Both the position numbers and the translations under genes were made by a program. 64,000 nucleotides of DNA from assembly GCF_013416775.1 (NCBI RefSeq), contig NZ_SZVI01000003.1:62001-126000 (forward strand), given 5' to 3'. Below are positions 27,120-55,674 of the stretch, in pieces; the first letter of the stretch is position 1; the number at the start of each line of letters is the position of its first letter. Origin of the DNA: Rhodoferax sp. BLA1. GTDB taxonomy: Bacteria; Pseudomonadota; Gammaproteobacteria; Burkholderiales; Burkholderiaceae_C. Under the pieces are notes generated by a model. That model was not told where the DNA came from, did no database searches, and was given only the letters and a program-made list of their open reading frames with translations.

Positions 27120-27194
27120 CTCGCCATAGTTCAATGGATAGAACGAGTGCCTCCTAAGTGCTAGATGCAGGTTCGATTCCTGCTGGCGGGACCA
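27120..27194 (+). tRNA. tRNA-Arg (anticodon CCT)
   Basis: The sequence folds as a cloverleaf of 75 bases including CCA. The acceptor stem pairs CTCGCCA with TGGCGGG (one G-T wobble), the D-arm is GTTC/GAAC, and the anticodon loop CTCCTAA has anticodon CCT. The T-arm is GCAGG-TTCGATT-CCTGC. It reads AGG codons, which are rare in this GC-rich coding style. A short hairpin terminator follows. Confidence 0.95.
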
Positions 27195-52938: not shown

Positions 52939-53033
52939 CAGACCGGCAATTTATTTGAATTTTCATGATGAATAAGCCTGTCTATAGTCCACCCATTCAC
53001 AACGCAACATCATCACCCCGAAGGAGAGACTGC

Positions 53034-54413
53034 ATGGATCAATCGAACCGTTATGCCGACCTGAGCCTCAAGGAAGAGGACCTCATCGCCGGGGGCAAAC
53101 ACATCCTGGTGGCGTACAAGATGGCGCCCAAAACGGGCTACGGTTACCTGGAAGCAGCTGCCCACTTTGCCGCCGAGTCCTCCACTGGTACCAATGTGGA
53201 GGTGAGCACCACCGACGATTTCACGCGCAGTGTGGACGCATTGGTGTATTACATCGACGAGGCCACCGAGGACATGCGCATTGCGTACCCGATTGACCTG
53301 TTTGACCGCAATGTGACCGATGGCCGCTTCATGCTGGTATCTTTCCTGACGCTGGCCATTGGCAACAACCAGGGCATGGGTGACATCAAACACGCCAAGA
53401 TGATCGACTTTTACATGCCCGAGCGGGTCATCCAGATGTTTGACGGCCCGGCCAAGGACATCTCGGACCTGTGGCGCATTCTGGGACGTCCGATCAAGGA
53501 CGGCGGCTACATCGCCGGCACCATCATCAAACCCAAGCTGGGCCTGCGCCCGCAGCAGTTTGCCGATGCCGCCTACCAGTTCTGGCTGGGCGGTGACTTC
53601 ATCAAGAACGACGAGCCGCAAGGCAACCAGGTGTTTGCGCCGATCAAGAAAACCTTGCCGCTGGTCTACGACTCACTCAAACGCGCCCAGGACGAAACCG
53701 GCCAGGCCAAGCTGTTCTCGATGAACATCACCGCTGACGACCACTACGAGATGCTGGCCCGCGCCGACTTTGCCCTGGAGACCTTTGGCCCGGATGCCGA
53801 CAAGCTGGCCTTCCTGGTAGACGGTTACGTGGGTGGCCCCGGCATGGTGACCACCGCCCGGCGTCAGTACCCCAGCCAATACCTGCACTACCACCGCGCG
53901 GGCCACGGCGCGGTCACCAGCCCGAGCGCCAAGCGCGGTTACACCGCCTTTGTGCTGGCCAAGATGAGCCGTCTGCAAGGAGCGTCTGGCATCCACGTTG
54001 GCACCATGGGCTACGGCAAGATGGAGGGTGAAGGCGACGACCGTGGCATTGCCTACATGATCGAGCGCGACGAATGCCAGGGCCCGGTTTACTTCCAGAA
54101 GTGGTACGGCATAAAACCCACCACCCCGATCATCTCGGGTGGCATGAACGCGCTGCGCCTGCCTGGCTTCTTCAAGAACCTGGGCCACGGCAACGTGATC
54201 AACACCGCTGGCGGCGGCTCCTACGGTCACATTGACTCACCCGCCGCTGGAGCGGTGTCGCTGCGCCAGTCGTATGAATGCTGGAAGGCGGGTGCCGACC
54301 CGATCGAGTTCGCCAAGGAACACAAGGAGTTTGCCCGCGCGTTTGAGTCCTTCCCGGGGGATGCCGACAAGCTGTTCCCGGGCTGGCGCGAGAAGCTCGG
54401 TGTGCATAAGTAA
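53034..54413 (+). CDS. cbbM: Ribulose-1,5-bisphosphate carboxylase/oxygenase, form II
   Basis: The CO2-fixing enzyme of the Calvin cycle, form II (homo-oligomeric large subunits, no small subunit). The 459-residue sequence keeps all catalytic residues at the Rhodospirillum rubrum numbering: K166 in [10 protein letters not shown]191 (carbamylated), D193, E194 in [11 protein letters not shown]287, H321 and K329. [13 protein letters not shown] and GGGSYGHI are also present. Start [10 protein letters not shown] has an AAGGAG site upstream; an earlier in-frame ATG was rejected as it lies in the promoter region. It is followed by the activase genes cbbQ and cbbO. Form II suits high CO2 and low O2. 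Confidence 0.98.
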
Positions 54414-54487
54414 GCACGGGTTCAAGCTATCGGAGGCCTTGGTGGACTGGCCCGTTGCACAGGCTGCCTTATTCGACGTTTGTGGAA

Positions 54488-54595
54488 GGCATGTTGCGAC
54501 AGGGTGCCCTGCGCCGCGAATGTCCCCCGAAAGTGGCCTACAGCCACTTTCTCCTCCTTTATTTCGCTTTGCAGGACTCCCCATCACAACATGCC
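54488..54595 (-). repeat. Structured stem-internal loop-hairpin element, copy 2 (minus orientation)
   Basis: An imperfect 32-bp outer stem (arms 54488-54519 and 54564-54595) encloses a 9-bp perfect inner hairpin (GAAAGTGGC/GCCACTTTC, 54529-54551). Read on the minus strand, the internal loop carries AATAAAGGAGGAG on one side and GGGGGACATTCGCGG on the other, as in copy 1. Mismatches in the outer stem include several G-T wobbles when read on the minus strand. It lies in the cbbM-cbbQ gap and could also end the cbbM transcript. Confidence 0.75.
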
Positions 54596-54644
54596 CGAAA
54601 TGACTTCAGCGTTCAAGCATGGCAGGCAAACCAACACAGTCAAG

Positions 54645-54744
54645 CAGCGTGCGTTGGGTGTCTGACGCAGCGGAATAAAGGAGGAGGTTCGGGCATAGCC
54701 CGAACCGGGGGACATCCGCGGAGTCGGACACCCAATGCGCGTTG
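54645..54744 (+). repeat. Structured stem-internal loop-hairpin element, copy 1 (plus orientation)
   Basis: A 30-bp imperfect outer stem (54645-54674 with 54715-54744) encloses an inner hairpin GGTTCGGGC-ATA-GCCCGAACC (54686-54706). The internal loop carries AATAAAGGAGGAG and GGGGGACATCCGCGG, nearly identical to copy 2, while both stems differ in sequence but remain paired. Five of the seven outer-stem deviations are G-T wobbles on the plus strand, as expected for a folded RNA. It lies 124 bases before cbbQ. Confidence 0.75.
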
Positions 54745-54867
54745 CGGGTCCGTCCCAGAACCCAGAATAACGCTGTCCCCCAAAGACGCGAGCAAAAGGA
54801 CTTCAAGGTCTACCATCCCTTCTTCGATGTCACTTGCCCCAACCGTGACCCCATAGGAAAGCGCACC

Positions 54868-55674
54868 ATGACCAACTTGGCAGAGCAATACCGCATCACC
54901 CAAGAGCCTTTCTACCAGCCACAAAGCAACGAGGTGGCACTGTACGAAGCGGCGTACAACGCCAGATTGCCGGTCATGGTCAAAGGCCCCACCGGTTGTG
55001 GCAAGTCACGTTTTATCGAATACATGGCCTTCAAACTCGGCAAACCGCTGATCACCGTGGCCTGCAACGAGGACATGACCGCTTCCGACCTGGTGGGTCG
55101 TTATTTGCTGGAGGCCAACGGCACCCGCTGGCTTGATGGCCCGCTGGCCACCGCGGCGCGCATCGGCGCGATCTGCTATTTGGATGAGATCGTCGAGGCA
55201 CGGCAAGACACCACCGTGGTGATCCACCCGCTGACCGACCACCGCCGCCAGTTGCCGCTCGACAAAAAAGGCGAGCTGATCCAGGCGCACCCGGATTTTC
55301 AGTTGGTGATCTCCTACAACCCCGGTTACCAGAGCCTGATGAAAGACCTCAAACAAAGCACCAAACAACGTTTTGTCGGCTTTGACTTTGATTATCCTGC
55401 TGCAGATCTGGAAGCCAGCATCATCAGCACCGAGACCGGCATCCACAAAGCCGATGCGGTGCGGCTGGTCAAGGTGGGTGCGGCCGCGCGCGCACTCAAG
55501 GGGCACGGCCTGGACGAAGGCATTTCCACCCGGCTGCTGGTGTATGCCGCCACGCTGATCAAAGCTGAGGTGAACCCGCTGGACGCCTGTCGTATGGCGC
55601 TGGTGCGCCCGATCACCGACGACGCCGACATCCGCGCCACACTGGACCACGCCATCGACGCGATTTTTGCTTGA
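54868..55674 (+). CDS. cbbQ: RuBisCO activase AAA+ subunit CbbQ
   Basis: MoxR-type AAA+ ATPase that remodels inhibited RuBisCO together with CbbO. The 268-residue protein has Walker A GPTGCGKS (40-47), Walker B AICYLDEIVEA, sensor-1 VISYNPGYQ and the CbbQ-specific RQLPLDKKGE region. Start at 54868 (MTNLAEQYR) has AGGAAAG upstream and follows the cbbM gap with its structured elements. The stop is only 4 bases before the cbbO start, so the two are coupled. Confidence 0.95.
   Translation: MTNLAEQYRITQEPFYQPQSNEVALYEAAYNARLPVMVKGPTGCGKSRFIEYMAFKLGKPLITVACNEDMTASDLVGRYLLEANGTRWLDGPLATAARIGAICYLDEIVEARQDTTVVIHPLTDHRRQLPLDKKGELIQAHPDFQLVISYNPGYQSLMKDLKQSTKQRFVGFDFDYPAADLEASIISTETGIHKADAVRLVKVGAAARALKGHGLDEGISTRLLVYAATLIKAEVNPLDACRMALVRPITDDADIRATLDHAIDAIFA

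Follow-up and report, generated by a model that had tools for sequence, protein, structure and literature searches.

The gap between cbbM and cbbQ in Rhodoferax sp. BLA1 carries two hairpins of ~105 nt each, w1 and w2, lying head to head. With a probability of roughly 0.6 in our estimate, they would make up a single head-to-head dimer, one half each, of a palindromic repeat that is mobile but non-autonomous and has spread through Comamonadaceae.

Anatomy of the cbbM-cbbQ hairpins

The inverted repeats found in the window, that is, the whole stretch of 64,000 nucleotides analyzed here, pair 54488-54520 with 54563-54595 (w1) and 54644-54674 with 54715-54745 (w2; Table 1). A preliminary description of this DNA had placed two elements in opposite orientation at this site, which holds with the end of w2 corrected to 54745 and the spacer to 48 bp. 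The long outer stem and inner hairpin that it proposed are reproduced by RNA folding of the sense strands, with energies of -64.2 kcal/mol for w1 (z -9.0) and -70.3 kcal/mol for w2 (z -9.6), the opposite strands giving weaker folds (-51.0 and -53.6 kcal/mol, respectively). The outer stem comprises 25 positions in w1, including one A/A mismatch, and 23 positions in w2. Outermost in the element is a stem of 23-25 bp whose sequence is free. It is followed inward by a 3x3 loop, commonly GCA/GGA, and by a 5-bp stem, GCGAA/TTCGC or a variant of it. Next comes the conserved asymmetric loop, rich in purines, whose two strands are AUNAAGGAGGAG and GGGGGACA, and innermost is a hairpin of any sequence, 6-27 nt long among 165 copies. 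The near identity of the segments between the stems, also noticed previously, is reflected in the pattern AATAAAGGAGGAG-N-GGGGGACAT, which occurs twice in the window versus a mean of 0.00 expected. The listed open reading frame of cbbQ opens at a TTG at 54742.

Table 1. Features of the cbbM-cbbQ region (positions in the window)
Feature	Positions	Strand	Basis
Upstream gene, RuBisCO large chain (cbbM)	52965..54413	+	Pfam; form II/cbbM name from the preliminary description
Element w1 (left half), long imperfect hairpin	54488..54595	- (sense)	Inverted-repeat search, fold, core
w1 outer stem, 3' arm (sense)	54488..54512	-	Fold
w1 conserved loop strand GGGGGACAT	54520..54528	-	Core pattern
w1 inner hairpin, free sequence	54529..54551	-	Fold and core pattern
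w1 conserved loop strand AATAAAGGAGGAG	54551..54563	-	Core pattern
w1 outer stem, 5' arm (sense)	54571..54595	-	Fold
48-bp spacer separating the 5' ends of w1 and w2	54596..54643	none	
Element w2 (right half), long hairpin	54644..54745	+ (sense)	Inverted-repeat search, fold, core
w2 outer stem, 5' arm	54644..54666	+	Fold
w2 conserved loop strand AATAAAGGAGGAG	54674..54686	+	Core pattern
w2 inner hairpin, free sequence	54686..54706	+	Fold and core pattern
w2 conserved loop strand GGGGGACAT	54707..54715	+	Core pattern
w2 outer stem, 3' arm	54723..54745	+	Fold
Downstream gene cbbQ (AAA_5 and CbbQ_C)	54869..55674	+	Pfam; ATG start inferred

A dispersed family in Comamonadaceae

A covariance model built from six copies was searched in the genome of Rhodoferax sp. 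BLA1 and in a set of 60 genomes. The genome itself holds 13 clear copies, besides weaker antisense or marginal matches, and the model matches 33 of the 60 genomes, with about 95-135 nt per unit. Within the genus, 32 of 36 genomes show matches, that of BLA1 included, and only one of 24 does among the other families of the order. The exact core pattern is found in at least 118 stretches of the genome collection and nowhere in the viral collection. Among the matches listed, most belong to Variovorax, accompanied by Ramlibacter, Hydrogenophaga, Polaromonas, Rhodoferax, Pseudorhodoferax, and Xylophilus, and by a few records from outside Comamonadaceae (Luteimonas and MAGs of Thermomonas and Stagnimonas). 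Copies on chromids, from the plasmid collection, bear no annotation within the stretches examined.

With one Variovorax pair and its flanks as the query, 5-41 matches per genome are obtained among those listed in all 26 genomes, 23 of them with at least 27. Most listed relatives of this pair are 86-94% identical over ~250-290 bp and lie at other genomic places. By eye, many Variovorax pairs display an inverted terminal sequence, TTCAGGGCG...CGCCCTGAA, which is not evident in Rhodoferax; element ends in Variovorax are described here as GGCGCTGTTGTTCAGGGCG-type. Some Variovorax copies (for example, L128 5880-5930) also have ragged right ends, owing to tandem repetition of a 3' end unit, GCGCCCTGAACAACA, next to them.

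No Rfam covariance model matches the element as a family; at a loose threshold, a miRNA model alone appeared, below its cutoff, and was rejected as an identity. In the whole window, Rfam models reach their gathering threshold only once, with a tRNA at 27120-27191.

Presence and absence at orthologous sites

Copies are present in some relatives and missing from others at orthologous sites, which favors mobile DNA. At a Variovorax junction where two genes meet at ATGA, the insert is seen whole or in part in nine of 26 genomes, as a remnant in one, and not at all in 16. Fifteen of the 16 empty junctions read ATGA at the gene meeting point; gene frames were checked in six loci, and in the four empty ones ATGA holds both the end of the upstream frame and the beginning of the downstream one. 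In the carriers G089 and G109, the start of the second gene now lies 294 and 340 bp beyond the stop, respectively. The insert is flanked by ATGA on either side in eight of the nine carriers, the right edge of the ninth being illegible, and in G089 the repeated sequence extends to CATGAC; ~15-60 bp of sequence lies between the flanking ATGA and the element ends. Insertion would have split an ATGA stop/start overlap, and the flanking ATGA is a candidate target duplication at one readable site. As the stop and start codons partly force this duplication when both genes are kept, it supports a target duplication but is not proof of it.

At a second Variovorax junction, the element is whole or partial in nine and absent in 12 of the 21 genomes shown (G088, split over contigs, was left out), with no readable duplication. 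Moreover, BLA1 has a single copy at C5:171588 that G004 and G079 lack, with flank identities of 95% and 91%, respectively; here the exact insertion edges are unreadable and other sequence is present in both relatives. Neither this site nor the second Variovorax site is a clean insertion. The other sequence in G004 and G079 (L210 and L211) is hairpin-like, AACATC...GATGTT, and perhaps represents another repeat family.

Dimer organization

At the loci examined, neighboring copies less than 200 bp apart are head to head in 73 of 75 cases, tail to tail in two, and never in tandem; same-strand neighbors in the hit lists (G031:C51 1441-1708 and G080:C100 19189-19412) are exceptions to this order. 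The usual gap is about 46 bp, and the spacer measures 43-47 bp in 37 of 58 head-to-head pairs when the stems are counted as 25. Each strand of a head-to-head dimer shows a sense fold, so the dimer would function whichever way it is replicated or transcribed.

Within one dimer, the outer stems are unlike each other, with a mean identity of 0.40 and a highest value of 0.68 in 55 pairs. For the 27 Variovorax pairs, an identity this low is reached in none of 2000 permutations, although descent from one two-type founder could be an alternative cause, whereas the 28 pairs of other genera do not differ from random pairing (427/2000). At least part of the single copies are remnants of pairs, since one hairpin has been lost and the other kept in G092, L338/L070, and L135/L084. 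In L097, two halves ~650 bp apart were considered as the bounds of a large autonomous version; this was rejected, since ordinary-looking open reading frames lie between them, one of them apparently a membrane protein by eye.

Strand polarity and covariation of the stems

Each half is constrained to fold on one strand. This was measured in copies located through the core alone, 165 distinct ones out of 199, over their first 23 stem positions: the 3795 stem cells comprise 3217 Watson-Crick pairs, 390 G.T, 31 A.C, and 157 others, and pairing drops beyond position 25. Such an excess of G.T over A.C mismatches indicates that one strand has to fold, and it counts against both a cruciform and a strand-blind copying of DNA, as these would give similar numbers of the two. 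The previous observation of stems that differ while pairing is kept, with G-T wobbles in the direction of the internal loop, is therefore extended to the family.

Compensatory change was examined at a single orthologous locus, the cbbM-cbbQ gap, with 14 left hairpins aligned by sequence only (one of 15 was left out for an extra insert; three of 17 right hairpins were left out before counting). Their cells are paired in 93.4% of cases, and double changes are found in 18 of 40 pairs, a number that none of 500 shuffles reaches. Covariation amounts to 0.400, versus 0.174 in the shuffled set (0/500 as high) and at most 0.099 in the slide control; the weakest covariation measure, that of further pair types, is equalled in two of 500 shuffles. 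The relatedness of the hairpins is preserved by the slide control and not by the shuffle control. Covarying stems around a conserved loop were the test that the preliminary description had set for a covariance-model search, and both are observed here.

The arms form a scaffold whose length is fixed (23-25 bp) and whose sequence is free, and the conserved part is the asymmetric purine loop beside the inner hairpin. Within this loop, A faces G in 173 of 201 copies and G faces A in 26, with no G/G and two other combinations. These copies were not selected by those letters; their G.T/A.C ratio is biased, because copy finding for this count and for neighbor orientation scored G.T as paired, and that of the 165-copy set is unbiased. 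Also, the 5-bp stem has two of its pairs, G-C and A-U, jointly replaced by G/A and A/G in nine of the 14 left hairpins, which corresponds to the tandem G.A motif. Some copies of L179, L180, L185, and L187 carry an extra, near-identical piece of ~19 nt, GGACTTGGGGTTTTGCCAA, in the 5' core strand; at the cbbM-cbbQ loci with this piece, left and right halves are both affected, and a third branch would form.

Gene context

Forty-one of the 60 genomes matched in a survey of the cbbM-cbbQ gap, and from 30 loci, 10 without both anchors were left out, which leaves 20 Rhodoferax loci. The pair is found in 15 of them, one intact hairpin in two, and no element in three, whose gaps measure 11, 33, and 66 bp. 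The cbbM-cbbQ pair is old, and its retention in 15 of 20 loci is what a functional site would show, a point against the mobile-dimer explanation.

Elsewhere, placement is mostly intergenic. The genes flanking 43 Variovorax pairs (32 distinct sites; nine of 52 loci, without two central copies or flanking genes, were left out) are co-directional in 34 cases, convergent in nine, and divergent in none, against a background of 70 divergent gaps among 348 of at least 60 bp at other loci. In mixed genera, the deficit of divergent gaps is weak: eight of 51 intergenic pairs and 12 of 99 units (p = 0.08), with genes called by a simple open reading frame method and 13 of 112 units inside a called frame left out. 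This count supersedes an earlier, looser gene call (10/49 pairs and 4/61 singles divergent). Single copies show no preference for the direction of the genes (17 same, 14 opposite, p = 0.72). A replication-strand bias of the singles, judged by local GC skew as a proxy, was rejected, with 27 on the C-rich strand versus 15 on the G-rich one (binomial p = 0.09).

Resident Y1 transposases

A Y1 transposase match of the RAYT/TIRYT type is present in 32 of 35 genomes searched, that of BLA1 included, and 25 have exactly one; G109, G121, and G127 hold element copies and give no Y1 match. Around 44 Y1 loci from the 32 genomes, covering up to 1.5 kb per side and in several cases ending at a contig end, no true copy of the element is found. 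Three matches beside Y1 loci were discarded, the one significant match being a GTAG REP palindrome (L303) and the two weak ones being folds without the core (L291 and L307). The L303 locus, from a Stagnimonas MAG, is an ordinary REP-RAYT unit, with the Y1 transposase gene flanked by GTAG-type palindromes. Likewise, in a transposase search confined to Y1, neither a transposase gene in or beside a copy nor an autonomous version was detected. Near the 5' foot, GTAG occurs in four of 164 copies and CGTC in 13.

The Y1 gene adjoins an apparent gltB, a name that we assume from the start of the protein, in loci of Rhodoferax and Variovorax (L009, L273, L275, L277, L279, L283, and L284). In L279, an AT-rich end repeat, TTAATTGGGGTCAG / GGGGTCAG, lies on both sides of the Y1 gene, in a TIRtron-like manner. 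Among the element copies, GGGGACAG is present in 29 of 165 and GGGGACAT in 136, at a place where the search pattern allowed only G or T. TIRtron repeats carry the motif GGGGWSAS (PMC3733652); GGGGACAG fits it, and GGGGACAT fails at the last base.

Comparison with known repeats

REPINs are inverted doublets with compensatory changes (PMC3116915), and recognition by TnpA-REP proteins involves a single DNA strand in folded form, with GTAG and a bulge (PMC8266576). The element resembles REPINs and BIMEs in its dispersed inverted doublets with a short spacer, compensatory changes, stem irregularities, and strand-specific fold, and in that most genomes have a RAYT-like gene (PMC3116915 and PMC8266576). 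However, its unit of ~105 nt is about three times the size of REPs (20-40 nt), its conserved part is the middle and not the foot, and GTAG is rare. Unlike REPINs, its two halves have unlike stems, no RAYT gene lies beside a copy, and there is a possible target duplication. Since it departs from REPs in tag, size, and adjacency and yet works like REPINs, we describe it as REPIN-like and not as a REP family. Consequently, of the REP-like mobile family proposed in the preliminary description, the REPIN/BIME-like inverted doublets stand, whereas the link to REPs and RAYTs is not supported.

With TIRtron/TIRYT repeats, the element shares a GGGGWSAS-like sequence in part of its copies and self-complementary repeats arranged as dimers and heterodimers; the main text of that article (Di Nocera 2013) does not name Variovorax, Rhodoferax, or Polaromonas (PMC3733652). 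Unlike in TIRtrons, no element copy was found to flank a transposase at the Y1 loci examined, and the AT-rich ends of the resident TIRYT-like gene differ in sequence, where legible. Bacterial MITEs (ERIC, Correia, RUP, and the like) are non-coding and of 100-300 bp. The element is similar in these respects, in its mostly intergenic placement and possible target duplication, and, by eye, in the terminal inverted repeats TTCAGGGCG / CGCCCTGAA of many Variovorax pairs, but it is built of two hairpins, each separate and strand-polar, in which the inner loop is conserved and the stems are free, and we know of no parent transposon. Finally, integron attC sites are recognized by their fold, with free stem sequence and one active strand. 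Free stem sequence, fold, and single-strand polarity are found in the element as well, although attC sites have their boxes at the foot and the conserved part of the element is the centre.

Alternative explanations

The wobble polarity (390 G.T versus 31 A.C) is RNA-like, and a structured cis- or trans-acting RNA would have its halves transcribed in the sense direction and its purine loop, with AAGGAGG and GGA motifs that we take to be Shine-Dalgarno-like, bound by the ribosome or by a protein; the effect at cbbM-cbbQ would be to stabilize the cbbM mRNA over cbbQO. Compensatory change at one orthologous locus (18 pairs, 0/500 shuffles as many), the A.G to G.A exchange in the loop (173 versus 26 of 201, without G.G), and the pair kept in 15 of 20 cbbM-cbbQ gaps are all consistent with this. 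Nonetheless, G.T and G.A pairs form in single-stranded DNA too, singles are oriented independently of gene direction (17 versus 14), three of 20 Rhodoferax loci have no element between cbbM and cbbQ, Rfam gives no match, and no promoter-like or terminator-like site is seen in 54400-54900 when scored by the sigma-70 consensus; we consider this explanation unlikely. The same polarity argues against a host-maintained DNA site for chromosome organization or gyrase-type binding, spread by duplication and with the hairpins as cruciforms. The inverted layout and mostly intergenic placement would suit such a site, and the unlike stems of a dimer (identity up to 0.68, 55 pairs) would limit one long palindrome, but a cruciform uses both strands and would leave G.T and A.C about equal, which makes it very improbable.

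A true REP/TIR-type family, moved by a resident Y1 transposase (RAYT/TIRYT) that reads the GGGGACA part, would agree with the Y1 match in 32 of 35 genomes (exactly one in 25), its position beside the apparent gltB in the Rhodoferax and Variovorax loci read, and the inverted doublets as in REPINs. The TTAATTGGGGTCAG ends on both sides in L279 and the GGGGACAG copies also fit the TIRtron GGGGWSAS motif (PMC3733652). It is nevertheless doubtful, and quite improbable in our judgment, given the absence of a true copy within up to 1.5 kb per side of 44 Y1 loci (less where a contig ended, as in several cases), the rarity of GTAG near the 5' foot (four of 164 copies), and three genomes with copies and no Y1 match. 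Moreover, a target duplication is not expected for IS200/IS605-type enzymes.

Under the preferred explanation, a mobile head-to-head dimer, a putative trans-acting enzyme would read the purine loop in a folded single strand, each strand of the dimer offering one active fold. The dimer would have moved as a unit and inserted with a short target duplication, and at least some singles would be dimers minus one hairpin. After insertion between co-transcribed genes, the hairpins would become part of the mRNA, which may be why they are kept, for example at cbbM-cbbQ; a cis-RNA role is possible at some sites. The preliminary description had left the choice between a conserved RNA and a structured mobile element, and a dispersed, structured, and covarying family is in line with that proposal. 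More speculatively, and with low confidence on our part, the element could represent a new class of mobile element, a dimer whose two strand-polar folds are read solely at the purine-rich internal loop (exchangeable A.G/G.A), by a putative enzyme acting on folded single-stranded DNA or RNA and leaving a target duplication, and which has repeatedly been adopted in operons as an intercistronic RNA structure.

Implications

The data describe a wide family of structured repeats without an Rfam match, and in the literature searched (titles and abstract starts, with subscription papers and preprints outside its scope), no such repeat of Comamonadaceae is described. The family could be used to find a transposase or an RNA-binding protein that recognizes shape rather than sequence, and the cbbM-cbbQ pair is a natural test of the role of a hairpin between these genes.
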